A model generated the notes under the pieces. That model saw only the letters and a list, made by a program, of their open reading frames with translations. It was not told where the DNA came from and searched no databases. Made by a program: the position numbers and the translations under genes. A stretch of DNA of 64,000 nucleotides from the NCBI RefSeq assembly GCF_035978755.1, contig NZ_CP108414.1:2790001-2854000 (forward strand), read 5' to 3'. Source of the stretch: Streptomyces sp. NBC_01298. Lineage in GTDB: Bacteria; Actinomycetota; Actinomycetes; Streptomycetales; Streptomycetaceae. Every line of letters starts with the position of its first letter. The stretch's first letter is position 1. Shown piece by piece: positions 3,258-50,937 of the stretch.

Positions 3258-4163
3258 GTGCTCATAGGCCTGCTGACCGCTATCGCGGCGTCCATCTGCT
3301 ACGGCACGGGATCCGTCCTGCAAGCCGTGGGCTCCCGGCGGGCGGCCCGGATGTCGCCCGCCGCCGCCGGGGTCACCCAGCACGGCGGCCCGAACCTCAG
3401 CTCCACGGCGAAAGCCGCGATGACCTGGGAGTTCATCGTCGGCACGATCCTGGACTTCGTGGGCTTCGGCCTGGGCGCCCTGGCCGCCCGACTCCTGCCG
3501 CTCTTCCTGTCCCAGACGGTCATCAGCGCCAACCTGGTGATCACGGCCGTGCTGAGCGTGAAGATGCTCGGCATCCGGCTGACCCGGAAGGAATGGACCT
3601 CCATCGGGGTCGTCTGCGCGGCCCTGGTCCTGCTGGCGACGGCGGCGGGCCACGAGGGCGGTCACTACGCGCCGGCCGCCACGCACTGGTGGCTCCTGGC
3701 CGTGACCGTACTGATCATCGTGGGCGGCACGGTGGCGGTACGTTTCCTCGGCGCCCGCGCCGCGATCCTGGCGGGCCTGCTGTCGGGTCTGGCGTTCGGT
3801 GCGCTGGGCGTCGGGGTCCGCGTCCTGAACGGCGTCGAGCCGTTCTCGTTCCCGGCCCTCCTCTCCGACCCGGCCCTGTACGCCATCGTCCTCGCCGGCG
3901 TCGGCGGCATGTACCTGCACACCGTGGCGCTCCAGATCGGCTCGGTGAACGGCGCCACCGCCGCCCTGGTGGTCGGCGAAACCGTGCTCCCCGGAGCGAT
4001 CGGCGTGCTCTGGCTGGGCGACGCGTCCCGCCCCGGCATGGCCTGGCTGGCGGTCCTCGGCTTCGTCCTGGCGGTGACCGGCGCGGTGGCCGTCGCCTGG
4101 TACGGCAACCACGAGGCCGCGGACGGAGAGGTCCCCGTCCCGGCACCGGCTCCGGTCGGCTGA
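3258..4163 (+). CDS. DMT/EamA-type integral membrane protein
   Basis: A 301-residue protein with about nine or ten hydrophobic helices along its whole length, starting at residue 1 (LIGLLTAIAASICYGTGSVL). The pattern of short Gly/Ala-rich helices and the repeated halves resemble drug/metabolite-transporter superfamily proteins of the kind common in actinobacteria. The substrate is unknown. GTG 3258 is the start (CGGAG lies 9-13 bases upstream), and the C-terminus is a short charged, Pro-rich tail. It appears to be monocistronic, with an inverted repeat before it and a hairpin spanning its stop codon. Confidence 0.8.
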   Translation: MLIGLLTAIAASICYGTGSVLQAVGSRRAARMSPAAAGVTQHGGPNLSSTAKAAMTWEFIVGTILDFVGFGLGALAARLLPLFLSQTVISANLVITAVLSVKMLGIRLTRKEWTSIGVVCAALVLLATAAGHEGGHYAPAATHWWLLAVTVLIIVGGTVAVRFLGARAAILAGLLSGLAFGALGVGVRVLNGVEPFSFPALLSDPALYAIVLAGVGGMYLHTVALQIGSVNGATAALVVGETVLPGAIGVLWLGDASRPGMAWLAVLGFVLAVTGAVAVAWYGNHEAADGEVPVPAPAPVG

Positions 4164-4195
4164 AGCAGCCCCGCCGGGGTGTGTTCCTTCAGCCG
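4157..4195 (+). terminator. Hairpin spanning the stop codon of the DMT-type gene
   Basis: CGGCTGAAG at 4157-4165 (containing the TGA stop) pairs with CTTCAGCCG at 4187-4195. The loop holds a second short GC stem (CCCCGCCGGGG). The right arm merges into the interspersed repeat that follows. Confidence 0.5.
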
Positions 4196-4285
4196 TCCGG
4201 CGTTTGAGGACCGGGGTCTGGGGCGGAGCCCCAGGAGGGTCCGGGCAGCGCCCGGGGAACGGGCGAAGGGCGGGTAGGGGACTCC
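4188..4285. repeat. Interspersed GC-rich repeat, intergenic copy 1
   Basis: This copy opens with TTCAGCCGTCCGGCGTTTGA, followed by a G-rich run with the stem TGGGGCGGAGCCCCA and the segment AACGGGCGAAGGGCGGGTAG. The same arrangement recurs at 34305-34374 (plus), 34194-34270 (inverted) and inside smc at about 48929-49003. I recognise it as a repeat common between Streptomyces genes. It sits between the convergent DMT-type gene and thiQ. It could act as a bidirectional terminator or be passive. Confidence 0.75.
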
Positions 4286-4343
4286 GCCCCGCAGGGCCCA
4301 CCCAGCCGCACCCGCCCACCGGGCCCCGCACAGCGGCCCGGCC

Positions 4344-5366
4344 CTAATCCCCCGGCAGCACGACCACTTCGCCGGGGGCGAAGCTCACCGCGACCCGGTC
4401 CCCCACCCCGGGCGCCCCGGCCAAGTCACACTCCGCCTCCAGTACCGGCCCCACCTCGGGCCGGAGCAACAGCGCGACATGCGTCCCCCGGAAGGTCCGC
4501 GACACCACCTCGCACCCCAGTCCAGCAGGCGAAAGCACCACCCCGGCCGGCCGGACCAGCACCTGGCACTCCCCCTCGGAGGCCCCCGCCGCAACCGGCA
4601 CCTTCCCCCACGCAGTGGAGGCGACCCCACCCGACACCACTGCCGGGACGACGTTCTCGAAGCCCAGGAACCGCGCCACGAACTCCGACGCCGGCCGCTC
4701 CCACACCTCCAGCGGGGTCCCCGCCTGCGCGATCCGCCCGTCCCGCATGACGACCACCCGGTCGGCCAGCGCGAACGCCTCGCCCTGGTCGTGCGTGACG
4801 GCCAGCACGGTCGTGCCCAGCCGCGAGAACAGCCCCTGCAACTCCACCACCAGCCGCTCCCGCAGCCCGCGGTCCAGCTGCCCGAGCGGCTCGTCCAGCA
4901 TCAGGAGCCGCGGCGAGGGCGCCAGCGCCCGCGCCAGCGCGACCCGCTGCTGCTCGCCGCCGGACAGCGAGGCCACCGCCCGGCCCTGCGCCCCGGGCAG
5001 CCCGACGAGCTCCAGGAGCTCGGTGACCCGGGCCTCGGAGGTCTGCTTCGAAGCGCCCCGCATCCGCAGCCCGAACGCGACGTTCCCGCCCACGTCCCGA
5101 TGCGGGAACAGCTGGTGGTCCTGGAACATCAGGCCCACCCCCCGCCGGTGCACGGGCACCGCTGCCTGGTCGGCGCCGCCCAGCAGCACCCTCCCGCCGG
5201 CGACGGGCTGGAGCCCGGCCACCACCCGGAGCAGAGTGGACTTGCCGCTCCCGCTGGGCCCCAGCACGCACACGATCTCGTGTTCGGCGACCACCAGGTC
5301 CACGGCGTCCACGACCGCGCGCTCACCGAAGCGGACCGACACCCCTTCCAGCTGAAGCAGGGTCAT
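4344..5366 (-). CDS. thiQ: Thiamine ABC transporter ATP-binding protein
   Basis: A 340-residue ABC ATPase. Walker A GPSGSGKST is at residues 36-44, the intact signature is LSGGEQQRVAL, Walker B is LLMLDEP, and the H-loop is VTHDQ. A C-terminal TOBE-like region of about 100 residues is typical of ATPases for binding-protein-dependent importers of the Fe3+/thiamine/polyamine group. The ATG at 5364-5366 shares one base with the permease stop (TGATG), so it is translationally coupled. Thiamine specificity is inferred from the TPP riboswitch at the head of the operon rather than from the ATPase itself. Confidence 0.88.
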   Translation of the reverse strand: MTLLQLEGVSVRFGERAVVDAVDLVVAEHEIVCVLGPSGSGKSTLLRVVAGLQPVAGGRVLLGGADQAAVPVHRRGVGLMFQDHQLFPHRDVGGNVAFGLRMRGASKQTSEARVTELLELVGLPGAQGRAVASLSGGEQQRVALARALAPSPRLLMLDEPLGQLDRGLRERLVVELQGLFSRLGTTVLAVTHDQGEAFALADRVVVMRDGRIAQAGTPLEVWERPASEFVARFLGFENVVPAVVSGGVASTAWGKVPVAAGASEGECQVLVRPAGVVLSPAGLGCEVVSRTFRGTHVALLLRPEVGPVLEAECDLAGAPGVGDRVAVSFAPGEVVVLPGD

Positions 5367-20888: not shown

Positions 20889-21654
20889 CGGCCCGCTCCC
20901 GCCTCCGCCCGCGCCCGAAGACCCGTACGACCGGCCCGTACGCGGCTCCGAGCACGACCAGGGCGGCGCCGGCCACCACCGCCGCCACCTGGAGCAGCAG
21001 GGGCCCCGCCGTCGAGGTCCCGCCGGGCAGGGCGGCGTAGGCCTTGGGCCGCTCCACCATCGACAGGTCGGGCCACGCGACGGCGTCGACGCGGGCCATC
21101 ACCGCCGAGCGGGGCACCGTCCCCTGGCCGGCCTCCTGCAGGTGTGCCCGCGAGTCCAGCGAGGATCCGCGCCGGTCGCCGAGCAGGAAGAGGTTGCCCT
21201 CCGGCACCGTCACCTCGAACGGCGTCCGGGAGGCCGCCCCGTCCGGAGCGCCCGCCAGGTCGAGCTTCTCGACGTCGATGTACGGCTCGTCCAGCTCCTT
21301 GCCGTTCACGGTGAGCCGGCCGCCGGCACCGCAGCACTTGACCGTGTCCCCGCCGATCCCGACGACCCGCTTGACCATCGGCGAATCGCTCCACTGCTGG
21401 TCCCTGAAGACCACCACGTCCCCGCGGTGCACCTCGCCCCCGCCGATGCGCTGTGCCAGCATGCGGTCCCCGGGGTTCACCGTCGGCACCATCGAGTCGG
21501 TCGGCACCGTGTACGGCTGGTACACGACGGCTCCCCATACGAACCCACCGAGGAAGAGCACAAAGCCGATGGCCACGACCACTCCCGACAGCACGCTGCC
21601 GAGAGCACCGCGGCCATCGCCGTCACCTGCTCGTATTGCTCGTGTTCCGCCCAT
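20878..21654 (-). CDS. sipZ: Type I signal peptidase, SipZ-like
   Basis: A 258-residue leader peptidase that removes signal peptides of exported proteins on the outer membrane face. One N-terminal helix (about residues 18-42) precedes the catalytic Ser54 in PTDSMVPT and Lys95 in MVKRVVGIGGD; the box LLGDRRGSSLDSR follows. A second helix lies near the C-terminus (about residues 215-240), as described for SipZ of S. lividans. It is the last of four tandem sip genes, 44 bases after sipY. ATG 21654 lacks a strong ribosome site. Confidence 0.9.
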   Translation of the reverse strand: MGGTRAIRAGDGDGRGALGSVLSGVVVAIGFVLFLGGFVWGAVVYQPYTVPTDSMVPTVNPGDRMLAQRIGGGEVHRGDVVVFRDQQWSDSPMVKRVVGIGGDTVKCCGAGGRLTVNGKELDEPYIDVEKLDLAGAPDGAASRTPFEVTVPEGNLFLLGDRRGSSLDSRAHLQEAGQGTVPRSAVMARVDAVAWPDLSMVERPKAYAALPGGTSTAGPLLLQVAAVVAGAALVVLGAAYGPVVRVFGRGRRRERADVR

Positions 21655-21698
21655 TGCAAGCGCCCCCACACTCGGAGATCGTCGACCTGGGCGGCACC

Positions 21699-22631
21699 CT
21701 ACCTGCCGGTAGGCCCTGCGGTCAGCTTCCGCCTGCGCCACAGTACGACCGGTACCGCGCCGGCGAACCCGAGGGCGGCCGGGCCGAGCCCGACCGGCGC
21801 CAGTCCGGCGGCGTCCATGCCGAGCGCGGTGGCCTTGGTCTGCGTGCCGATGCCGGGCTGGTCGAAGGTGTCCGGAACCGGCAGGGTCGACCAGCGGGTG
21901 ATCGGCCACGCGACCACCACGGCGCGTCCGACGACATCACTGACGGGCACGAACCCCTGGGTGGCGGGGTCCTGCTGGTGGTAGCGGGAGTCCTGCGAGT
22001 TCTGACGGTGGTCGCCCATCACCCAGATCTTGCCCTTGGGCACGGTGAGCGGACCGAAGGGCAGGTCGTCGCACGGGGTGTTGCCCGGGTAGATGTACGG
22101 CTCGTCCAGCTCCTTGCCGTTGACGATGACCGGTCCCCCCTTCTTGCACTCGACCGTGTCACCGCCGATGGCGATCGTCCGCTTGATCAGGTCCTTCTCC
22201 TCGGCGGACGGCATGAGGCCGATCCAGCTGAGGGCCTTCTGGGCGATGTTGGGCTCGGGAGTGAACTCGTTGCTCAGCCAGTTCGACGGGTCGTGGAAGA
22301 CGACGACCTCACCGCGCTCGGGCTCCGACCCGAACCACGGCGTCAGCTTGTCCACGAGCACCCGGTCGCCGCGCTGCAGGGTGTTCTGCATCGAGTCGGA
22401 GGGGATCGAGAAGGCCTGCACGAGGAAGGTCTTGATCAGCAGGGCGAGCAGCAGGGCGATTCCGACCAGGAGCGGAAGCTCCTTCCAGAAGGAACGGTGC
22501 GAGCGTGCCTCGGCGCCGTCCTGCGCGTCGCCGTCTTGCTCGACGGCATCGGGCCCGGAGGAGTCTTTCGGCTCCTCGCCACCCTCGTCGCGTCCGGACC
22601 GTGCACCAACCGCCACGTCCCCCACATCCAC
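21699..22631 (-). CDS. sipY: Type I signal peptidase, SipY-like
   Basis: A 310-residue leader peptidase. The acidic 45-residue N-terminus is followed by a helix at about 53-73, catalytic Ser80 (IPSDSMQNTL) and Lys150 (IKRTIAIGGD), and the box MGDHRQNSQDSR. A C-terminal Ala/Gly-rich hydrophobic stretch (about 265-300) before RRRK suggests a second membrane anchor, the odd topology reported for streptomycete Sip proteins. In S. lividans SipY is the major enzyme for secretion. It lies 98 bases after sipX, so a promoter between them is possible. Confidence 0.92.
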   Translation of the reverse strand: MDVGDVAVGARSGRDEGGEEPKDSSGPDAVEQDGDAQDGAEARSHRSFWKELPLLVGIALLLALLIKTFLVQAFSIPSDSMQNTLQRGDRVLVDKLTPWFGSEPERGEVVVFHDPSNWLSNEFTPEPNIAQKALSWIGLMPSAEEKDLIKRTIAIGGDTVECKKGGPVIVNGKELDEPYIYPGNTPCDDLPFGPLTVPKGKIWVMGDHRQNSQDSRYHQQDPATQGFVPVSDVVGRAVVVAWPITRWSTLPVPDTFDQPGIGTQTKATALGMDAAGLAPVGLGPAALGFAGAVPVVLWRRRKLTAGPTGR

Positions 22632-22729
22632 TCCTCGTTCGGAATTCGACGCCCGGACCTGATGAGGCGCGGGCCCTCCCCTCCCCTAACGAGCGGGAGT
22701 TCCCGAAGGCGCGGGAGACCAAGGACACA

Positions 22730-23605
22730 CTATGCGAACGAGGAGCCGCCCCGGCGCCTACGGGGCGCGCGGCGACCGCCGCGCGCCTGGTCGGGAACCA
22801 TGCGGAAGGTGGCGGGCTGTTCCAGCCGGTGCCAGTGCCCGACGGGCCAGGCGATCACCACGGCCTGGCCGACCACGTCCTTCACGTCGATCGTGCCGTG
22901 GAAGGCCTCGTCGAGGTGGTAGCGGGAGTCGGCGGAATTCGCCCGGTGGTCGCCCATGACGAAGATCCGTCCGGCGGGCACCTGCACCTCGAAGCGGATC
23001 TCCGAGGGCGCGTTGCCCGGGTTGACGTACGGCTCGTCGAGCGGCGAGCCGTTGACGCTGACCCGCCCCCGGGCGTCGCAGCACTTCACGCTGTCCCCGC
23101 CGACCCCGATGACCCGCTTGATCAGGTCCTGTTCGTTCGCCGAGGGCAGCAGGCCGATGAAGGTGAGCGTCTGCTTGATCTGCTTGATGCCCACCGGGTC
23201 CTCGGCCGGCTGGACGCTGTCGGCGCCCAGCCAGCCCCCCGGGTCCTTGAAGACGACCACGTCGCCGCGCTCGACCTGGGAGCCGAACCACGGGGTGAGC
23301 TTGTCCACCAGGACCCGGTCGCCGATGCGGATCGTCTGCTCCATGGAGCCCGACGGGATGAAGAAGGCCTGGACGAGGAAGGTCTTGAGGATCAGGGCGA
23401 TGCACAGCGCGACCACCACGAGCAGGGGCAGCTCCCCCACCCGCCGCGTACGCCGCCTGCGCTTCACCCGGCGGGCGAGGCGACGCCGTTCGGCCCGGCT
23501 GCCGGGCTCCGCGGGCCCGGCGCCCGGCTCGGGCTCCGGCTCCGGTTCTGGCTCCGCGCCGGCATCTTCGTACCGGTCTCCCCGCGGGCGCCCGCGGCTA
23601 CCCAC
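22730..23605 (-). CDS. sipX: Type I signal peptidase, SipX-like
   Basis: A 291-residue leader peptidase. The N-terminus has an EPEPEPEPEP run and a highly basic stretch (RRLARRVKRRRRTRR) before a helix at about 60-80. Catalytic Ser87 is in IPSGSMEQT and Lys163 in IKRVIGVGGD; MGDHRANSADSR follows. The C-terminus ends in basic residues, and I see no second hydrophobic anchor, unlike sipY and sipZ here. GTG 23605 is the start, overlapping sipW by eight bases. Confidence 0.9.
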   Translation of the reverse strand: MGSRGRPRGDRYEDAGAEPEPEPEPEPGAGPAEPGSRAERRRLARRVKRRRRTRRVGELPLLVVVALCIALILKTFLVQAFFIPSGSMEQTIRIGDRVLVDKLTPWFGSQVERGDVVVFKDPGGWLGADSVQPAEDPVGIKQIKQTLTFIGLLPSANEQDLIKRVIGVGGDSVKCCDARGRVSVNGSPLDEPYVNPGNAPSEIRFEVQVPAGRIFVMGDHRANSADSRYHLDEAFHGTIDVKDVVGQAVVIAWPVGHWHRLEQPATFRMVPDQARGGRRAPRRRRGGSSFA

Positions 23606-24416
23606 GGCCGCCGCCCGCGGAATCCGCGGCGCCCCAGCGCGACACCGGCCAGCCGATCCAGTCGGCCCGCCCGATCACCTTCTCCACCGGCACCATCCCC
23701 CCGCCCGGCTCCCCGAGGTGGTCCCGGGAGTCCCGGGACTGGGAACGATGATCACCCATGACCCACAGGCTCCCAAGGGGCACGACGATACGGAACGGCA
23801 CTTTCGATCCGGAGTCGCCGGGAAAGAGGTACGGCTCGTCCAGCGGGACCCCGTTGACCTTGATCCGGCCGCGTTCGTCGCACACCACGTCGTCACCGCC
23901 GACGCCCACGACCCGCTTCACGAAATCGGTGTCCGAGGGCTCGGCCAGCCCGAGCGCGGAGACCGCCCCGTGCAGGGCGTCGCCGATCGGACTCCCGTCC
24001 CGGTCCTCCTGTACGAAGGAGCCCGTGCCGTCGAAGACCACGACGTCCCCGCGCTGCGGCCGGTCGCCGAAACGGTACGCCAGCTTGTTGACCAGGACCC
24101 GGTCCCCGACGGCGAGCGTGGGCTCCATCGAGTGGCTCGGGATCAGGAAGGGCTGGAGCACGAAATTGCTGAACAGCAGCAGGAAGACGGTGCAGGCGAG
24201 GCCGAGCAGCCCGGCGCGCCGCCAGCTCAGCCGGTCGGCCTTGCCGGGGCCCGAGTCCGCCGCCGCGTCCAAGTCCGCCGCCGGGTCCGCGTCCCGGGTC
24301 GGGTCCGGGGTCGGATCCGAGTCCGGACCCGCTCCGGAAAGCACGAAACGCGACCGCCCCTCCCCCTCGTCGGGGGAAGAGTGGCCGCGCTGCGTGTGAG
24401 GTGCTTCGGTGTCCAT
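23598..24416 (-). CDS. sipW: Type I signal peptidase, SipW-like
   Basis: A 272-residue leader peptidase, first gene of the four-gene sip cluster. An acidic Asp/Pro-rich cytoplasmic N-terminus of about 60 residues precedes one helix (about 69-88). Catalytic Ser96 is in IPSHSMEPTL and Lys167 in VKRVVGVGGD, and MGDHRSQSRDSR is conserved. No C-terminal membrane segment is seen, in line with SipW of S. lividans. It starts 44 bases after the rplS stop, so it may be read through from the ribosomal operon. Confidence 0.92.
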   Translation of the reverse strand: MDTEAPHTQRGHSSPDEGEGRSRFVLSGAGPDSDPTPDPTRDADPAADLDAAADSGPGKADRLSWRRAGLLGLACTVFLLLFSNFVLQPFLIPSHSMEPTLAVGDRVLVNKLAYRFGDRPQRGDVVVFDGTGSFVQEDRDGSPIGDALHGAVSALGLAEPSDTDFVKRVVGVGGDDVVCDERGRIKVNGVPLDEPYLFPGDSGSKVPFRIVVPLGSLWVMGDHRSQSRDSRDHLGEPGGGMVPVEKVIGRADWIGWPVSRWGAADSAGGGRG

Positions 24417-32533: not shown

Positions 32534-34108
32534 CTACTTCATGAACTTCTTGAACTCGTCCGGCAGGTCGAAGTCCCCACCGGGCTGGGCGCCCCCGGCC
32601 GGAAGGCCGAACGGGTTGCCGCCGGCGGCGGGCTCGATCGCCTCCGGACCGGCCTCGCGGCGCGCGGCTGCCGCAGCCTCTTCTTCCTTGCGCTTCATCG
32701 GGTTGCCGCTCTTGCGCTTGCCCTTGGCCTGCTTGACCTGCTTCTTCTGCCGGCCGGGGCCGCCGCCCATCCCGGGCATGCCCGGCATGCCCGGCATGCC
32801 GCCGCCCTGGGCCATGCGGGACATCATCTTGCGGGCCTCGAAGAACCGCTCGACGAGCGACTTGACGGCGCTGACCTCGGTGCCGGAACCCTTGGCGATA
32901 CGGGCGCGGCGCGAGCCGTTGATGAGGTGCGGGTCCTGGCGCTCGGCCGGGGTCATCGACTTGATGATCGCGGCGGTGCGGTCCACGTCGCGCTCGTCGA
33001 TGTTGTTGATCTGGTCCTTGATCTGCCCCATGCCCGGGAGCATGCCGAGCAGCTTGGAGATGGAGCCCATCTTGCGGACCTGCTCCATCTGGGACAGGAA
33101 GTCGTCGAGCGTGAACTCCTTGGGCCCCTTCTGCAGCTTGGCCGCCATCTTCTCGGCTTCGGCCTGGCTGAAGGTCTTCTCGGCCTGCTCGATCAGGGTG
33201 AGCATGTCACCCATGTCGAGGATCCGGCCCGCCATGCGGTCCGGGTGGAAGGCGTCGAACTCGTCGAGCTTCTCGCCGTTCGAGGCGAAGATGATCTGCT
33301 TGCCGGTGACGTGCGCGATGGAGAGCGCCGCACCGCCTCGGGCGTCGCCGTCGAGCTTGGAGAGCACGACGCCGTCGAAGCCGACGCCGTCGCGGAAGGC
33401 CTCGGCGGTGTTGACCGCGTCCTGGCCGATCATGGCGTCGACGACGAAGAGGATCTCGTCGGGGCTGACGGCGTCGCGGATGTCCGCGGCCTGCCGCATC
33501 AGCTCCTGGTCGATGCCGAGGCGGCCGGCGGTGTCGACGATCACGACGTCGTACTGCTTGGTCCGCGCGTACTCGATGGAGTCCTTGGCGACCTGGACCG
33601 GGTCGCCGACGCCGTTGCCGGGCGCGGGCGCGTAGACGGCCACGCCGGCCCGCTCGGCCACGACCGAGAGCTGGTTGACGGCGTTGGGGCGCTGGAGGTC
33701 ACAGGCGACGAGGAGCGGGGTGTGGCCCTGCCCCTTCAGCCACAGGCCGAGCTTTCCGGCGAGGGTGGTCTTACCGGCACCCTGGAGGCCGGCGAGCATG
33801 ATCACGGTGGGCGCGGTCTTGGCGAAGCGCAGCCGCCGGGTCTCGCCGCCGAGGATGGAGACCAGCTCGTCGTTGACGATCTTGAGGACCTGCTGGCCCG
33901 GGTTCAGGGCCTTGGAGACCTCTTCGCCGCGGGCGCGCTCCTTGACGTTCGCGATGAAGGAGCGGACGACCGGGAGGGCGACGTCGGCCTCGAGGAGGGC
34001 GATACGGATTTCCCGCGCCGCAGCGTCGATGTCCTGCTCGGAGAGGCGGCCTTTGCCCCGGAGGGACTTGAAGGTCGCGCTGAGGCGGTCGGAAAGCGTA
34101 TCGAACAC
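32534..34108 (-). CDS. ffh: Signal recognition particle protein Ffh (SRP54)
   Basis: A 524-residue SRP GTPase that binds 4.5S RNA and signal sequences. The NG domain has the P-loop GLQGAGKTT, DTAGRLG and SKLDGDARGGAAL. The M domain (about residue 300 on) includes a Met/Gly-rich stretch (GGGMPGMPGMPGMGG) and a basic tail. The C-terminus ends LPDEFKKFMK. GTG 34108 is the start (FDTLSDRLSATFK). It pairs with FtsY elsewhere in this window to complete the SRP targeting route. Confidence 0.95.
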   Translation of the reverse strand: MFDTLSDRLSATFKSLRGKGRLSEQDIDAAAREIRIALLEADVALPVVRSFIANVKERARGEEVSKALNPGQQVLKIVNDELVSILGGETRRLRFAKTAPTVIMLAGLQGAGKTTLAGKLGLWLKGQGHTPLLVACDLQRPNAVNQLSVVAERAGVAVYAPAPGNGVGDPVQVAKDSIEYARTKQYDVVIVDTAGRLGIDQELMRQAADIRDAVSPDEILFVVDAMIGQDAVNTAEAFRDGVGFDGVVLSKLDGDARGGAALSIAHVTGKQIIFASNGEKLDEFDAFHPDRMAGRILDMGDMLTLIEQAEKTFSQAEAEKMAAKLQKGPKEFTLDDFLSQMEQVRKMGSISKLLGMLPGMGQIKDQINNIDERDVDRTAAIIKSMTPAERQDPHLINGSRRARIAKGSGTEVSAVKSLVERFFEARKMMSRMAQGGGMPGMPGMPGMGGGPGRQKKQVKQAKGKRKSGNPMKRKEEEAAAAARREAGPEAIEPAAGGNPFGLPAGGAQPGGDFDLPDEFKKFMK

Positions 34109-34193
34109 GGTGGTCGCGATTCCTCGGGTCGGGGGCGTGTGGTCGTCCCCCAGGGTATCGGGCCGCGCTACCCCTTCGGCCCTGCGGGCGGCT

Positions 34194-34374
34194 TTCCCCA
34201 CCCCGCCCTTAGCCCGTTCCCCGGGACTCCGCCCCGGACCCCGCGCCTCAAACGCCGGCGAGGCTGGAATATCCCCGGCGGGGCTGGATGGCGCGGAGCG
34301 CCATTTCAGCCCGTCCGGCGTTTGAGGACCGGGTCCGGGCGGAGCCCGGGGAACGGGCGAAGGGCGGGTAGGGG
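34194..34374. repeat. Interspersed GC-rich repeat, inverted pair between ffh and glnD
   Basis: A minus-oriented copy covers 34194-34270, with its GTTTGAGG-equivalent read backwards as CCTCAAACGCCGGCG. A plus-oriented copy covers 34305-34374 (TTCAGCCCGTCCGGCGTTTG). The 34 bases between them are themselves GC palindromes. Together they could form a large cruciform or a bidirectional terminator. The rest of this 284-base gap is empty. Confidence 0.75.
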
Positions 34375-34392
34375 ACAGCCCCCGCAGGGCCC

Positions 34393-36822
34393 CTACGCCA
34401 GGGCCGCCTGCACGGCCAGTGCAAGGGCTGCCGCCGCCGGGCCCGTCAGGGGTTTGCCGTCCGCGTCGACCACGTACACCGTGTCCACGGCGTTCGCGCC
34501 GAGCGTGGAGACGTGCGCGCTGCGGACCCTGACCCCGGAGGACTCCAGCGCCCGCCCGATCCGGTGCAGCAGTCCGACCGCGTCGGGAGCGCGCACCTCC
34601 AGGACCGTGGCCAGGGAGGAGACCTCGGGCATCACCGCGACCCGGGGCGGCGGCGGGACCACCCCGCGCCGGCGCGGGTACGCCGCCTCGCGGTCCGCCA
34701 GCTTCGCCGGGACGTCCAGCGAGCCGTCCAGGGCCCGCACCAGGTCGGTGCGCAGCCGTGCGGCCTGCGGCAGGGAGCCGTACTCCGCCGCCACCCGCCA
34801 GCGCAGGACCAGTACCTCGCCCAGTTGCTCCGGGAGCTCCATCGAGCGCAGGTCGGCCGCGCGCACGGTGAGCCGGTGCAGGGCCAGTACGCCGGCCACC
34901 GCGGGCAGCACCCCCGGCTGGTCGGGGACGGCCACCACCAGTTCCACCCCGACCGCGTCCTCCTCCTGGCGGGCGTGCAGGGCCAGGACCGGCTCCCCGG
35001 TGCGCAGCGCCTCCACCGCGAGGCGCTCCTGCTCGGTCGTCGGGATCTCCAGCTCCGTCACCGCCGGGGCGGCCCCGCGCAGCACGGCGGCGACCCGGGC
35101 GACCAGGTCGGCCACGAGCGAGCCGCGCCACGCGCTCCACGCCGCGGGGCCGGTGGCCAGCGCGTCGGCCTCCGTCAGCGCGTGCAGGATCTCCAGCGTG
35201 CCGGGCGACCCGACCGCCTCCGCGACCGCCTTGACGGTCGCCGGGTCGTCCAGGTCGCGCCGCGTGGCGGTGTCGATGAGCAGCAGGTGGTGGCGTACGA
35301 GCACGCCCAGCACGGCGACGTCCTCCGCGTCGAAGCCCACCCGCAGTGCCATGTCGCGCGCGATGGTCTCGCCGGCGACCGAGTGGTCGCCGGGCCAGCC
35401 CTTGCCGATGTCGTGCAGCAGCGCGGCCATCAGGAGGAGGTCGGGGCGGCCCACCCGGCGGGTCAGCTCCGAGGCCCGGACGGCCGTCTCGACGAGGTGC
35501 CGGTCCACGGTCCAGGTGTGCACCGGGTTGCGCTGCGGCCGGCACCGCACCCGCTCCCAGTCGGGCAGCAGCTTCGTGATGATCCCCTCGGCCTCCAGCG
35601 CCTCCCACACGGCCACCGTCGGCTCCCCCGCGCCCAGCAGGGTCAGCAGCTGCTCCCGGGCCTCGGCCGGCCACGGCACCGGCAGCGGCTTCGCCTGCGC
35701 CGCGAGCCGGCGTACGGCGTGCAGCGAGACGGGCAGTCCCGCCTGGGCGGCGGCCGCGCCGAAGCGCAGGGGCAGCACCGGGTCCCGGTCGGGCCGCGCG
35801 GCCAGGGCCAGTACGGCCTCGCCGTCGGACTCGACGACGCCCTCGGCGAGCGGGGCCCGCTCCGGTACGGAGCCGCGGGTGCCGAGCAGCCCGCGCAGCC
35901 GGGGGCGGGCCGACCGGGCCCGGAGCACGCGCCCGACCTCGCGCCAGGTCACGTCACCGGCGTACGAGACCACCCGCGCGGCCTCGTACACCTCCCTGAG
36001 CAGGGCGTCGGCGTCGAGCAGACCGAGCTGCGCCGCGACCGGCGTCTGCTCCTGGAGGGAGAGCCGATCGGTGGCGCGGCCCGTCACCAGGTGCAGCGCG
36101 TCCCGGGCGTCGAGCAGCCGGCGCCGGGCTTCGGCGAGCCCTTCGCGGGGGGCGTCGGCCAGCCAGGACGCGGCGACGGCCCGCAGCGCGGTGACGTCGC
36201 GCAGTCCCCCGCGGGCCTCCTTGAGGTCGGGTTCCAGCAGGAAGCGGAGCTCCCCGGCACGCTCGGCCCGCTCGCGGCACAGGGAGTGCAGCTCGGGAAG
36301 GCGCTTGGCGGCGTGGTTGCGCCAGTCCGCCAGCACGGAGGTGCGCAGTCCCGCGAGGAGCCCTGCGTCGCCGGCGACGGGCCGGGCGTCGAGCAGTCCG
36401 AGGTGCACCTTGAGGTCTTCGGCGGCGGTCTTGCGGGCTTCGCCGGGGGTGCGCACCGAGTGGTCGAGGGCGACGCCGAGGTCCCAGACGGGGTACCAGA
36501 GCCGGTCGGCCAGGGTGGCCAGGGCGCGCGGTTCGGCTTTTCCGTCGTGCAGCAGGACCAGATCGAGGTCGCTGCGCGGGGACAGTTCGGCGCGGCCGTA
36601 GCCGCCGACGGCGACGAGGGCCGCGCCCCGCACGCCCGTCTCCTTCACGGCGGTGGCGAACAGCGCCTTCAGCCAGTCGTCGGTCAGGGCGGCCAGGGCG
36701 GAACGCCGGGAAGGCCCGGACCGCGACTCCTCCTGGAGGAGTCGCAGCCGGGCCGCGGCGTACCCGCTGGGTCCCTGGTCGGCGGTGTTGCCGCCGTCAG
36801 TGGTCTCTTCGACACTCGTCAC
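34393..36822 (-). CDS. glnD: PII adenylyl/uridylyltransferase
   Basis: An 809-residue nitrogen sensor. Its nucleotidyltransferase core is GGYGRAELSPRSDLDLV (residues 73-89, with D85 and D87 as likely metal ligands). The HD hydrolase domain holds HDIGKGWPGDHS (about residues 470-481). Two C-terminal ACT domains sense glutamine. In Streptomyces this enzyme adenylylates the GlnK tyrosine. GTG 36822 is the start. It is the last gene of amtB-glnK-glnD, 17 bases after glnK. Confidence 0.95.
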   Translation of the reverse strand: MTSVEETTDGGNTADQGPSGYAAARLRLLQEESRSGPSRRSALAALTDDWLKALFATAVKETGVRGAALVAVGGYGRAELSPRSDLDLVLLHDGKAEPRALATLADRLWYPVWDLGVALDHSVRTPGEARKTAAEDLKVHLGLLDARPVAGDAGLLAGLRTSVLADWRNHAAKRLPELHSLCRERAERAGELRFLLEPDLKEARGGLRDVTALRAVAASWLADAPREGLAEARRRLLDARDALHLVTGRATDRLSLQEQTPVAAQLGLLDADALLREVYEAARVVSYAGDVTWREVGRVLRARSARPRLRGLLGTRGSVPERAPLAEGVVESDGEAVLALAARPDRDPVLPLRFGAAAAQAGLPVSLHAVRRLAAQAKPLPVPWPAEAREQLLTLLGAGEPTVAVWEALEAEGIITKLLPDWERVRCRPQRNPVHTWTVDRHLVETAVRASELTRRVGRPDLLLMAALLHDIGKGWPGDHSVAGETIARDMALRVGFDAEDVAVLGVLVRHHLLLIDTATRRDLDDPATVKAVAEAVGSPGTLEILHALTEADALATGPAAWSAWRGSLVADLVARVAAVLRGAAPAVTELEIPTTEQERLAVEALRTGEPVLALHARQEEDAVGVELVVAVPDQPGVLPAVAGVLALHRLTVRAADLRSMELPEQLGEVLVLRWRVAAEYGSLPQAARLRTDLVRALDGSLDVPAKLADREAAYPRRRGVVPPPPRVAVMPEVSSLATVLEVRAPDAVGLLHRIGRALESSGVRVRSAHVSTLGANAVDTVYVVDADGKPLTGPAAAALALAVQAALA

Positions 36823-47067: not shown

Positions 47068-50000
47068 TCACCGCAGGCGCTGGCTGATCACCTTCGACAC
47101 CCCGTCGCCCTGCATCGAGACCCCGTAGAGCGCGTCGGCGACCTCCATGGTCCGCTTCTGGTGCGTGATCACGATCAGCTGCGAGCTCTCCTGCAGCTCC
47201 TCCATGATCCGGATCAGCCGCTGCAGGTTGGTGTCGTCGAGCGCGGCCTCGACCTCGTCCATCACGTAGAACGGGCTGGGCCGCGCCTTGAAGATGGAGA
47301 CCAGCAGGGCCACGGCGGTCAGCGAGCGCTCGCCGCCCGAGAGCAGCGACAGCCGCTTGACCTTCTTGCCCGGAGGCCGGGCCTCCACGTCGACGCCCGT
47401 GGTGAGCATGTTGTCCGGATCCGTCAGGATCAGCCGGCCCTCGCCGCCGGGGAACAGCCGCGAGAACACCCCCTCGAACTGGCGGGCCGTGTCCCGGTAG
47501 GCCTCCGTGAAGACCTGTTCGACCCGCTCGTCCACCTCCTTCACGACCTGGAGGAGGTCGGCCCTGGTCTTGCGCAGGTCCTCCAGCTGCTCGCTGAGGA
47601 ACTTGTGCCGCTCCTCCAGCGCCGCGAACTCCTCCAGCGCCAGCGGGTTGACCTTGCCGAGCTGCTGGTAGGCCCGCTCGGCCGCCTTCAGCCGCTTCTC
47701 CTGCCGGGCGCGCACGAAGGGCTCCGGACCGGAGTCCGCGTCCGGATCCTCCCCGTCCGCGGACGGGCTCGGCGGTACCGGCTGGTCGGGCCCGTACTCG
47801 GCCACGAGCCCCGGCGCCGCCATCCCGAACTCCTCCAGCGCACGGCTCTCCACCTGCTCGATCCGCATGCGCTTCTCGGCGCCGAGCACCTCGCCCCGGT
47901 GCACCGAGTCCGTGAGCTTGTCGAGCTCGCCCTTGAGGCCGCGGCCCAGCCCCCGGGCCTCGTCGAGCTCGCGCTCGCGGACGCCCTTCGCGTACTCGGC
48001 GGACGTGCGCTCCCCCACGGCGCGGGTCAGCGACACCTCGATGTGCGCCAGCAGCTGGCGGGCTCCGTCGGCGACGGCCCCGGCCACCCGCGCCTCGTAC
48101 CGCAGCCGTTCCCGGCGGCGCTCGGCCCTGGCCCGGGCCTCGCGCTCGGCCCTGGCCCCGCGGTCGAGGGAATCGGCCCGGCCCGCGAGCCCCTTCACCC
48201 GCTCCTCGTGGGTCCTGAGCTGGAGCCGGGCCTCCATCTCGGTCTGCCGCGCGTTCGCCCCGTCGGCCGAGAGCCGGTCCTTCCTGGAGGTGTCCGGCTC
48301 CTCCTCCGCAGGCATCTCCTCGGCGACCGCGAGCCGTTCCGCGCACTCCTCCACGTCGGCCAGCGCCTGCTCCAGCGCGTCCTGCGCCGCGGCGGCGGCC
48401 GCGGCGGCGCGGTCGGCTTCGCCCAGTGCCCCCTTCGCCTGCCCGGCGAGCCGTCCGAGCTGCTGCGCGACCCCGGCCCGCGCCCGCTCGGCGGCCCGCC
48501 GGAGCTCCCCGAGCTCCTCGACCCGGGCCCCGGCCGCCACCCGGCGCGCGTCCGCGTCCGTCTTCTCCCCCGCCAGCACCAGACACCGGCCGTCCAGCCG
48601 GGCCAGCTCCGCCGCGGCCTCGTCGACGGCGGCCTGCACCTCGATCAGGCTGGGCACCCCGGCGGAGCCACCGTGCGCGAGGTGCGCTCCGAGCACGTCC
48701 CCCTCGGCGGTCACGGCCACCAGCTCCGGCCGCGCGGCAACGAGCGCCTCGGCCTCGTCGAGCCCCCCGACGACAACGAAGTCCCGCAACACCCAGGCCA
48801 CGGCCCGCACGACCTCGGCGTCCCCCCGCACGAGCCCCGCGGCACCGACCACCCCGTCAACCTGCACCTGAGGCCCGGAGCCCGACACGGTCAGCCCGGC
48901 GGGCGCTTGAGACGCGGGGTCAGGGGAATTCAGCCCCGCCGGCGTTTGAGGCGCGGGGTCCGGGGCGGAGCCCCGGTTTCGGGAAGGGGCGGGGTGGGGG
49001 AAAGCAACCCCCGGCCCGACCCCGCCGGCCGACCCGACACCGGTTCCCGGTTCCGACCCCCGGGTCGCCGCGACGGTCTGGACCGAGTCCTGGTCCTGAG
49101 CCGAGCTCGCGTGGGGGGCCTGATCCGGGATCGGGCCCGGGGCCGACCCCGAATCCGGCGCCGGGGCCTGACCCGGAACTCCGCCCCCGACCACCGAACC
49201 GCCGGAGGCGACGGGCGCGATGAGGAACGCCGCCCTCCCCGCCTCCCCCTCCCGCAAGTACCGGATCGCCCCGGCCGCCGCCGCCGTCGACGTGACGGCC
49301 ACCGCGTCCGCCGCCGCACCCAGCGCCGCCGCCACCGCGACCTCGTACCCCGGGGTCACGGACAACCGCCGGGCCGCCGGCCCGAGCAGCCCCTCCAGCC
49401 GCGCCGCGAGCAGCTCGGCCGTGCCGTCCTTGCGGCGCAGCCCCATCGCCAGGGCGTCCCGCCGCGCCGACACCGCCGCCCGCGACCGCTCCGCCGCGGC
49501 CAACGCGTCCCGGGTCTCCCCCAGTGCGGCCTCCGCCGCCGCCAGCTCGGCCCGCGCCTCCTCGTACTCCCCCGGCCCGGAGCCGGCGGCCCCCTCGGCC
49601 GCCCCCGGGGATTCCTCCCCGACCTCCTGCGCCAGCGCCTCGTACTCCTCGCGCGCCTCCTCCGCCCGTGCCCGCGCCGCGTCCCGCGCCAGCACCAGCC
49701 GGTCGATCTCCGCCTGGGCGGCGCCCGCGCGGGAGCGGGCCGCGCCGAGCCGGCCCGTCAGCCGCGCCAGTGCCTCGCGCCGGTCGGCGATGGCCCGCGC
49801 CACGTCCCGTAGCCGCCGTTCCTCGTCGGCCAGCGCGCGCTCCAGCTCGGCCCGGTGGGCGACGGTGTCCTCCAGGGCCCGCGCGGCCGCCTCCTGTGCG
49901 GCCGTCAGTTCCGCCTCCTGCTCGCGGATCCGCGCGGCCTCCTTCTCCATCTCCTCCGGATCCCGGCCGCGCCGGTCCTCCTCCGCCGGCGCCGACGCCG

Positions 50001-50937
50001 AGGTGACCCGGGCGTCCGCCAGCGACACCGTCCCGCGCACGCGCTCGGCGAGCTGGGACAGTTCGTACCAGGTCTGCTGCGCCCGCTGGAGCCGGGGCGC
50101 GAGTTCCCGTACGGCCTCCTCCAGTTCGGATTCCCGCCGCACCGCCGCCGCGAGCTGCGCCTCGGCGGCCTCCTTGCGCTCCTTCAGGGCCGCCTCGTCC
50201 GCGATCTCCGCGTCGAGCGCGCCCTTGAGCGTGACGAGGTCGTCGGCGAGCAGCCGCAGCCGCGCGTCCCGCAGGTCCGCCTGGATCACGGCCGCCCGCC
50301 GGGCCACCGCCGCCTGCCGGCCCAGGGGCTTCAGCTGCCGCTGCAGTTCGTTGCCCAGGTCCTGCACGCGCGCGAGGTTGGCCTGCATCGCGTCCAGCTT
50401 CCGCAGCGCCTTCTCCTTGCGCTTGCGGTGCTTGAGCACCCCGGCCGCCTCCTCGATGAAGGCGCGGCGGCCCATCGGATCGGCGTGCAGGACGGAGTCC
50501 AGCTGGCCCTGTCCGACGATGACGTGCATCTCGCGGCCGATGCCGGAGTCGGAGAGCAGTTCCTGGATGTCGAGGAGGCGGCAGGTGTCGCCGTTGATCT
50601 GGTACTCGCTGCTGCCGCCGCGGAACATGATCCGCGTGATGGTGACCTCGGCGTACTCGATGGGCAGCGCGCCGTCGGAGTTGTCGATGGTGAGCGAGAC
50701 CTCGGCGCGGCCGAGCGGGGGGCGACCGGTCGTGCCGGCGAAGATGACGTCTTCCATCTTCCCGCCGCGCAGGGACTTGGCCCCTTGTTCGCCCATGACC
50801 CAGGAGAGCGCGTCCACCACATTGGACTTGCCGGAGCCGTTGGGGCCCACGACGCAGGTGATGCCCGGCTCGAAGCGCAGGGTGGTCGCGGAAGCAAAGG
50901 ATTTGAAGCCGCGCAGGGTCAGGGACTTGAGGTGCAC
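47068..50937 (-). CDS. smc: Chromosome segregation protein SMC with hinge insertion
   Basis: A 1289-residue structural-maintenance-of-chromosomes ATPase. Walker A GPNGSGKSN is near residue 32, long coiled coils flank the hinge (about residues 520-760), and the signature LLSGGERSLTAVALL and Walker B YVMDEVEAALDDTN lie at the C-terminus. Actinobacterial SMC is usually about 1180-1190 residues. The excess is a Pro/Ala/Ser-rich segment at about residues 577-691 in the hinge, part of which is a copy of the interspersed repeat read in frame. The ends of the hinge around it (RAAFLIAPV; VDGVVGAAGLVRG) look normal. Confidence 0.95.
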   Translation of the reverse strand: MHLKSLTLRGFKSFASATTLRFEPGITCVVGPNGSGKSNVVDALSWVMGEQGAKSLRGGKMEDVIFAGTTGRPPLGRAEVSLTIDNSDGALPIEYAEVTITRIMFRGGSSEYQINGDTCRLLDIQELLSDSGIGREMHVIVGQGQLDSVLHADPMGRRAFIEEAAGVLKHRKRKEKALRKLDAMQANLARVQDLGNELQRQLKPLGRQAAVARRAAVIQADLRDARLRLLADDLVTLKGALDAEIADEAALKERKEAAEAQLAAAVRRESELEEAVRELAPRLQRAQQTWYELSQLAERVRGTVSLADARVTSASAPAEEDRRGRDPEEMEKEAARIREQEAELTAAQEAAARALEDTVAHRAELERALADEERRLRDVARAIADRREALARLTGRLGAARSRAGAAQAEIDRLVLARDAARARAEEAREEYEALAQEVGEESPGAAEGAAGSGPGEYEEARAELAAAEAALGETRDALAAAERSRAAVSARRDALAMGLRRKDGTAELLAARLEGLLGPAARRLSVTPGYEVAVAAALGAAADAVAVTSTAAAAGAIRYLREGEAGRAAFLIAPVASGGSVVGGGVPGQAPAPDSGSAPGPIPDQAPHASSAQDQDSVQTVAATRGSEPGTGVGSAGGVGPGVAFPHPAPSRNRGSAPDPAPQTPAGLNSPDPASQAPAGLTVSGSGPQVQVDGVVGAAGLVRGDAEVVRAVAWVLRDFVVVGGLDEAEALVAARPELVAVTAEGDVLGAHLAHGGSAGVPSLIEVQAAVDEAAAELARLDGRCLVLAGEKTDADARRVAAGARVEELGELRRAAERARAGVAQQLGRLAGQAKGALGEADRAAAAAAAAQDALEQALADVEECAERLAVAEEMPAEEEPDTSRKDRLSADGANARQTEMEARLQLRTHEERVKGLAGRADSLDRGARAEREARARAERRRERLRYEARVAGAVADGARQLLAHIEVSLTRAVGERTSAEYAKGVRERELDEARGLGRGLKGELDKLTDSVHRGEVLGAEKRMRIEQVESRALEEFGMAAPGLVAEYGPDQPVPPSPSADGEDPDADSGPEPFVRARQEKRLKAAERAYQQLGKVNPLALEEFAALEERHKFLSEQLEDLRKTRADLLQVVKEVDERVEQVFTEAYRDTARQFEGVFSRLFPGGEGRLILTDPDNMLTTGVDVEARPPGKKVKRLSLLSGGERSLTAVALLVSIFKARPSPFYVMDEVEAALDDTNLQRLIRIMEELQESSQLIVITHQKRTMEVADALYGVSMQGDGVSKVISQRLR
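48890..49005. repeat. Interspersed GC-rich repeat inside the smc coding sequence
   Basis: The core at 48929-49003 opens TTCAGCCCCGCCGGCGTTTGA and carries the stem CCGGGGCGGAGCCCCGG and a following G-rich run, as in the intergenic copies. A decayed second copy (GCCCGGCGGGCGCTTGAGAC) precedes it at 48890-48927. Read in the smc frame it gives a Pro/Ala-rich peptide (NRGSAPDPAPQTPAGLN), with no stop codon. Confidence 0.8.

Follow-up and report, generated by a model that had tools for sequence, protein, structure and literature searches.

How did a long Pro/Ala-rich segment come to interrupt the hinge of the SMC protein of Streptomyces sp. NBC_01298, and does its DNA descend from a repeat that is dispersed through the genome? 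The initial annotation of this locus proposed that an interspersed, mobile-looking intergenic repeat had become coding sequence in an essential chromosome protein. We followed up this proposal in the window, that is, the whole stretch of 64,000 nucleotides that was analyzed, and in related genomes and proteins. The gene and the parts of its hinge are as follows.

47068..50937, minus strand: smc, encoding an SMC protein of 1289 aa (open reading frame, Pfam SMC_N and SMC_hinge, and matches to SMC proteins in the PDB).
49213..49395, minus strand: first half of the SMC hinge, approximately residues 515-575 (Pfam, structure model and Foldseek).
48859..49212, minus strand: Pro/Ala-rich insert between the hinge halves, residues 576-693 (118 aa).
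48622..48834, minus strand: residues 702-772, the second half of the SMC hinge in the structure model (also Foldseek).

Judging from a structure model, the insert most likely forms a disordered loop that connects two strands, and the hinge around it looks normal. The protein has both halves of the ATPase head and the hinge of an SMC protein (Pfam, PDB and Foldseek). The Pfam SMC_hinge match covers residues 515-580 (positions 2-67 of the 116 in the profile), after which the insert interrupts it. In an AlphaFold model spanning SMC residues 494-772, made with 33 sequences as input, the means of ten-residue blocks were 87-95 in the first half of the hinge and 91-96 in the second half up to model residue 260, followed by blocks of 70 and 67. 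In the insert, the block means were 42-63 (with an edge block of 69) and secondary structure was nearly absent. The top Foldseek matches of the hinge model were solved SMC hinges (best E 2.7e-8), with which it has both halves in common in superposable form and from which it differs by the 118-residue insert that is predicted to be disordered. These low block means and the matches to solved hinges are the basis for our assignment. The position of the insert in the hinge and the open reading frame through it were as the initial annotation had described. Calling SMC essential was too strong, because Streptomyces venezuelae strains without smc live: in the accessible text of the relevant report, smc deletion strains are viable, with replication and oriC positioning altered during germination (PMC13121528).

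Part of the insert is encoded by DNA of the same repeat family as two other places in the window. The features that establish this are listed here, beginning with those in smc.

48925..49002, minus strand: residues 646-671, encoded by the repeat; the element runs in plus orientation, with a full copy at 48928-49002.
48892..48924, minus strand: decayed second copy, residues 672-682 (PDPASQAPAGL), recognized from sequence and from a profile match with E 0.0042.
48934..48956, plus strand: hairpin 1 of the element, with loop GGCGTTTGA; the stem keeps a mismatch, and the arms covary in 110 distinct own-genome copies.
48960..48976, plus strand: hairpin 2 of the element, with arms CCGGGGC and GCCCCGG, which covary and are paired in the minus-strand RNA fold.
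4188..4290, plus strand: copy of the element between a plus-strand ORF ending at 4163 and a minus-strand ORF ending at 4344.
34178..34383, no single strand: inverted pair of copies, with cores at 34246-34258 (minus) and 34315-34327 (plus).

A profile made from the other copies in the genome found the smc copy with E 1.2e-14, compared to E 2.2 for the best match in a reversed control, and positions 48931-48976 were 96% complementary to 34221-34266 over 46 nt, in opposite orientation. The minus-strand reading of the element in smc gives the predicted peptide FPHPAPSRNRGSAPDPAPQTPAGLNS (residues 646-671), after which comes the decayed unit. Together, the repeat match covers approximately 37 of the 118 residues of the insert (646-682), and the remainder is other Pro/Ala/Gly-rich sequence in which there was no match to the repeat profile at E < 0.05. 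The insert as a whole is thus not repeat, as the profile match at this threshold is limited to residues 646-682. The RNA fold of the smc stretch alone was modestly better than that of shuffled sequences (z -2.0, with 7 of 200 shuffles equally good). The kinship with the copies at 4188 and 34194-34374 and the presence of an additional decayed copy in the insert, both claimed at the outset, were borne out; the copy at 34194-34374 is of the family, and is an inverted pair and not a single copy.

The inverted pair lies in front of a minus-strand gene that is presumably Ffh-like, judging from its translation, and behind a minus-strand ORF at 34393-36822. At 34110-34330, the Ffh-like frame (ORF 32534-35674, minus strand) continues open upstream across the pair, so gene callers could add a repeat-encoded peptide to this protein. 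Extension of a frame into the repeat in this way is a possible route of capture. Elsewhere in the window, positions 21141-23873 hold four paralogous stretches arranged head-to-tail (families D1 and D3), presumably the cluster of type I signal peptidase genes known from Streptomyces. There were no Rfam matches in the window at gathering scores.

The element is REP-like, GC-rich and approximately 75 bp long, has two hairpins, and is present in many copies. The core CCGGCGTTTGAGG, with no more than one mismatch allowed, occurred four times in the window (all exact) versus 0.22 times expected. In the entire 9.7 Mb genome there were 154 exact cores versus none in the reversed control, and 224 versus 30 with no more than one mismatch. 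A BLAST search with a 92-nt stretch gave 54 matches (40 scored of 251 candidates), the best non-self match being 96% identical over 71 nt. The expectation that the DNA of the insert would match many copies outside genes was therefore correct.

We determined the anatomy of the element from 110 distinct copies, with 112 of the 154 exact-core places covered. One pair in hairpin 1 was T-A in 61 copies and G-C in 42, and was Watson-Crick in 104 of 110 versus a maximum of 68 in 2000 shuffles; another was C-G in 69 copies and G-C in 37, and was Watson-Crick in 106 of 110 versus a maximum of 76. A C.C or T.C mismatch was present in hairpin 1 in 109 of the 110 copies. Hairpin 2 had perfect arms of at least 6 in 81 copies versus 4 of 110 when the tails were single-base-shuffled once. 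Adjacent cores were arranged head-to-head in 17 cases (12 with 36-37 or 53-55 nt between the cores), directly in 10 and tail-to-tail in none, and 57 loci had a single core. The core counts, the profile E-values and the covarying hairpin arms rule out GC bias as the source of the repeat match.

The loop into which the repeat is inserted is hypervariable in the genus. There were 57 named Streptomyces loci after omission of L086 and L091, in which the hinge is absent, and in the 53 that had both hinge halves (four of the 57 lacked one) the loop was 19-165 residues long, with a median of 31 and 17 loci at 60 or more. The share of Pro, Ala, Gly and Ser in the loop had a median of 0.61 in these loci and was 0.63 in the SMC of the window, and no SMC from the named Streptomyces loci had a match to the repeat profile at E < 0.05. 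L110, L124, L157, L159 and L161 did not yield both halves of the hinge and are outside the later counts. Based on the range of lengths and the similar composition of loops that lack a match to the repeat, we conclude that the loop is a permissive site and that the repeat is one of its fillers. Half of the case that the initial annotation had set against itself is thus real: similar Pro-rich hinge loops with unrelated DNA do exist, and the other half, similarity caused by GC bias, does not apply. By the same token, the proposal of repeat-driven protein extension stands insofar as an interspersed, mostly non-coding repeat is now coding, and falls insofar as the repeat alone was to have made the loop, because similar loops lack it.

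There are two side observations on smc loci. In two close relatives, L049 (Streptomyces sp. ISL-66) and L047 (S. bambusae), the contig ends in or shortly before the insert, the matches reaching residues 538 and 651; GC-rich loops or repeats perhaps interrupt the assembly of short reads there. In L110 (G012:C1:8645500-8645781), an smc-like hinge stretch without the core runs into unrelated sequence with stops, and this is perhaps a second, partial copy of smc.

The repeat in smc is shared across species. We examined the best 120 of 3321 protein matches to a query (residues 500-800) that contains the insert, a sample that favors carriers of the repeat for that reason. PSRN[RWQ] was present in 34 of these 120 SMC proteins and APDPAPQ.PAG in 24; ten had two or more repeat units, and five had stretches, such as SAPPAFEERG, that resemble the opposite orientation. 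A tree was built from 119 of these proteins, with the insert left out and without the partial protein P0117; the repeat was intact in 34, partial in 70 and absent in 15, as judged by loose regular expressions. These labels were clustered, with at least 18 changes needed versus a mean of 42.7 when shuffled, and intact and partial proteins fell on either side of the midpoint root. The closest SMC proteins mostly carry the same repeat peptide, which rules out a peculiarity of a single strain and indicates that the capture is old in this clade. The expectation that close relatives would lack the insert failed, as 104 of the 119 have intact or degraded traces.

At the DNA level, the profile matched 9 of 125 inserts at E < 0.05 (L109, which is the own smc, L139-L143, L145, L148 and L155). 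All nine genes agree in the strand of the element and in the frame in which its PHP end is read. The smc gene of L155 had seven profile matches approximately 51 nt apart, which is a tandem array, and L145 and L148 had a frame shift inside the element that is later restored. We note that the copy in L148 (G197) reads PSRNRGLRPRTPAPQTPAGL, with the middle in another frame, as it would be after compensating indels. The sequence that adjoins the repeat differs between species.

The element is in frame in several unrelated genes of the same genome. We tested 114 core copies (112 distinct), a non-random set made up of the first 100 listed places and the best BLAST matches. Ten of the 112, at eight loci, were coding, that is, the frame was open through both flanks and the bases had a coding-like periodicity; the other 102 scored as non-coding by the periodicity test. 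The coding loci mostly place the element in linkers between domains, as delimited by Pfam. Besides smc, they are the following, with positions given in the protein; the names HemA and CobB are tentative readings of the Pfam matches.

CobB: inverted pair at 249-283, between CbiA (9-194) and GATase_3 (307-489).
Biotin carboxylase alpha chain: 469-490 and 562-568, one copy each, both within the stretch that matches the BT domain (457-625).
MbnB/TglH-like (DUF692) protein: 311-317, C-terminal to the Pfam domain (8-272).
ABC protein with two ATPases: 287-293, preceding the second ATPase domain (325-466).
HemA: 316-322, between a match ending at 278 and one starting at 472.
PTS IIABC protein: 163-169, between EIIA, which ends at 143, and IIB, which starts at 203.
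Eighth coding locus: a protein without a Pfam match.

In nine of the ten coding copies, the element was read in one of its two Pro/Ala-rich frames (PQTPA or PAFE). A gene-blind spread would make most copies coding, yet most are not, so the coding copies look like survivors in places that tolerate them. The tail TTTCGGGAAGGGGCGGGG was found in six exact-core copies, three of which were coding, versus 7 of the 106 others (Fisher p 0.009), and coding copies may usually derive from the subfamily with this tail. The element was also present at the PTS site in G302 and G345, and a peptide search found the repeat peptide in nine proteins of other sizes from other species, including precorrin-3B synthase (with three units), DUF692, CobB and ABC proteins, and a phosphonate permease. 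By eye, the Streptomyces CobB proteins P0123, P0125 and P0127 carry the pair in the same place as the own CobB (L002, G000:C1:6908592-6908761). A stricter coding test on 30 loci missed the smc copies L229, L231 and L232, which are surely coding, and its counts therefore run low.

At third codon positions, the DNA of the repeat in smc is more constant between species than that of its surroundings. We compared the seven smc genes with repeats of equal length (L145 and L148 have repeats of unequal length and were omitted). In the 21 pairs, third positions agreed at 0.91-1.00 in the 69-nt repeat versus 0.61-0.86 in the hinge flanks. Agreement over all bases was 0.87-1.00 in the repeat and 0.80-0.94 in the flanks, a gap that was slight in some pairs (0.87 versus 0.85 for L142 and L143, and 0.93 versus 0.92 for L139 and L142). 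The repeats of L140 and L155 were identical at 69 of 69 nt, and their flanking third positions agreed at 92 of 152. The genes compared were chosen as carriers of the repeat peptide; this choice inflates identity at the amino-acid level and does not as such inflate agreement at third positions. Codons CGA and CAA, which make up 0 and 3% in three genes of the window used as a reference, were retained in all nine repeat-bearing smc genes, and CCT (5%) was retained at both of its places in the seven genes with equal-length repeats, with one exception, its first place in L143. L151 and L154 still encode PHPAPSR, with codons shifted to CGG and CCC/CCG, as expected of ordinary codon drift.

Changes within the repeat extend to both arms of hairpin 2, whose outer pair is altered on both sides in the SMC genes of three other species. 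In L139, L140 and L155, an Arg-to-Trp change (CGG to TGG) accompanies a silent change from CCG to CCA in the opposite arm. The same Arg-to-Trp change is present in L143 without the silent partner, leaving a T-G pair, and in the second of the tandem units of L155 the outer pair is disrupted (C-A). Outside smc, a copy in G098 that was called non-coding shares 72 of 74 nt with the smc copy of the window.

Genomes with a near-full copy in smc had more copies of the element than other near relatives. The number of exact cores in 150 Streptomyces genomes ranged from 0 (46 genomes) to 235, and G281, counted separately, had 320. The eight genomes with a near-full smc copy had 154, 320, 235, 252, 85, 34, 35 and 176 cores; the genome with 176 is that with the mid-frame shift (L148), and 4 of the 35 cores in another are inside smc. 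Eleven other near relatives, including G078 with its weak L145 match, had 0-126 cores, significantly fewer when kinship is ignored (one-sided Mann-Whitney p 0.0025). G012 was omitted from this comparison because L110 is an interrupted smc-like stretch without the core; with G012 included (8 versus 12 genomes), p was 0.0015.

Based on these results, we think it probable that a REP-like element was captured once, ancestrally, in the permissive loop of SMC and was then homogenized with the genomic pool. The element would have entered the hypervariable, disordered hinge loop in an ancestor of the group that resembles S. lavendulae and S. virginiae, on a strand and in a frame that gave the flexible peptide FPHPAPSRNRGSAPDPAPQTPAGL. 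The copy would have been kept because the loop tolerates changes in length; some lineages would then have expanded it into tandem units, and in others it would have decayed. In genomes rich in copies, gene conversion with the pool most likely keeps the smc copy at the DNA consensus of the element. Capture in frame has also occurred in other genes, for the most part in linkers between domains. Homogenization appears to be the simplest reading of the constancy of the repeat in smc, and selection on the DNA or transfer between smc alleles would yield equal constancy.

It is unlikely, in our estimate, that the DNA of the element in smc is maintained by selection on the nucleic acid, as a protein-binding site or as a pause or processing hairpin, and not by homogenization. 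Such selection would fit the constant third positions and rare codons and the Arg-to-Trp change in three species that is paired with a silent change preserving hairpin 2. However, related smc genes have a recoded copy (L151 and L154) or none, and 46 of the 150 Streptomyces genomes are without an exact core, which together argue against a general need for the element. In addition, pairing in genes is imperfect, with a disrupted outer pair in one unit and T-G in L143.

Single ancestral capture has its own alternative, that the loop is a hot spot for insertion that the element entered several times independently. Repeated gain is possible because 15 of 119 SMC proteins have no trace of the repeat and the tree requires no fewer than 18 changes of label; the patchy presence, the stretches resembling the opposite orientation in 5 of 120 proteins, and the different sequences adjoining the repeat in different species are all in keeping with it. 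However, independent entries sit poorly with the finding that all nine genes with a DNA match have the element on one strand and in one frame at the PHP end, and we consider this reading quite unlikely.

We also doubt strongly that the peptide is a selected linker, for example one that tunes hinge opening or binds a partner, for which the repeat supplied only the raw material. The preference of nine of ten coding copies for the two Pro/Ala-rich frames could be explained in this way, as could the recoded start of the peptide in L151 and L154. But the large variation in length, the losses, and the unrelated sequences that fill the same loop elsewhere in the genus point away from it, and the peptide probably has no major function. 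Finally, a loop made Pro/Ala-rich by GC content, whose similarity to intergenic DNA is a matter of composition, has virtually no weight: the genus has many repeat-free loops of this composition, and this account may hold for residues 576-645 and 683-693, but it is contradicted for residues 646-682 by the exact cores (154 versus 0), the profile (E 1.2e-14 versus 2.2) and the covarying arms.

Ancestral capture followed by homogenization admits a broader and more tentative extension. It is conceivable, and to us somewhat doubtful, that a non-coding pool of palindromes rewrites unrelated proteins by gene conversion, such that drift of the consensus imposes coordinated amino-acid changes on them. 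With the same reservation, this might take in SMC, CobB, biotin carboxylase, HemA, the PTS transporter and others, the Arg-to-Trp change with its silent partner being an example.

The element fits the broad sense of REP. It is a stem-loop palindrome with arms that covary in 110 copies, and it is in high copy number mostly outside genes (154 cores, with 102 of 112 copies not called coding). REPIN and BIME doublets are head-to-head inverted pairs with preferred spacing; the Streptomyces element also forms such pairs, and differs in that 57 loci have a single core and no RAYT was found. A search for RAYT (Y1_Tnp, PF01797) was negative in the own genome and positive in 5 of 14 known genomes used as a control, which excludes a REP driven by a Y1_Tnp detectable in this genome; a lost or distant transposase behind the element is possible. 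The GTAG and CGTC end tags were in the 5' flank of 1 and 4 of 112 copies and in the 3' flank of 0 and 1, and these tetranucleotides occurred anywhere in 78 nt in 24 and 42 of 112, not as end tags.

By sequence, the element also behaves as a coding palindrome would, as it appears in frame in several unrelated genes (10 copies at 8 loci, plus those of other species). RPE of Rickettsia come from AT-rich genomes. The Streptomyces element is like them in phenomenon, in that palindromes are in frame in unrelated genes, and unlike them in being GC-rich and approximately 75 bp long, with two hairpins and mostly non-coding copies. In the accessible parts of the reports on them, RPE are repeated palindromes that are in frame in many unrelated genes and encode surplus peptide (PMC10969869, PMC3733652), with a length of approximately 150 bp (PMC10969869). 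GTAG/CGTC REPs are described, in the accessible main text of PMC3733652, as short, high-copy and mostly extragenic, occurring as singles and dimers, with intragenic copies that encode 20-30 aa and clusters that encode 43-82 aa; that text does not mention Streptomyces. The Streptomyces element is likewise short, high-copy and single or paired, with some copies intragenic, and differs by having no end tag and no Y1_Tnp in its genome. Tandem growth inside a gene and DNA constancy between species go beyond this precedent. In the open literature, where subscription papers are mostly out of scope, the core strings were found only in two papers, on poplar and wheat genes, and the peptide strings nowhere, and among the titles and opening lines of abstracts listed we recognized no described Streptomyces repeat family or SMC hinge insert.

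The finding belongs to a known kind of event, the in-frame capture of palindromes in Rickettsia and some REP-rich bacteria. New are the Streptomyces host group, the site in the SMC hinge, the tandem growth within a gene and the constancy at the DNA level; the in-frame copies in other genes, the tandem growth in smc and the DNA constancy also go beyond what the initial annotation had seen. Within one genome, the element reaches a core chromosome protein and seven further loci, and some caution follows for the use of SMC in this group, where the length of the loop and its codon use may be products of something other than ordinary protein evolution. The clade allows capture, tandem growth, constancy and erosion to be traced, and the system could be used to test whether pools of non-coding repeats drive protein sequence by homogenization.
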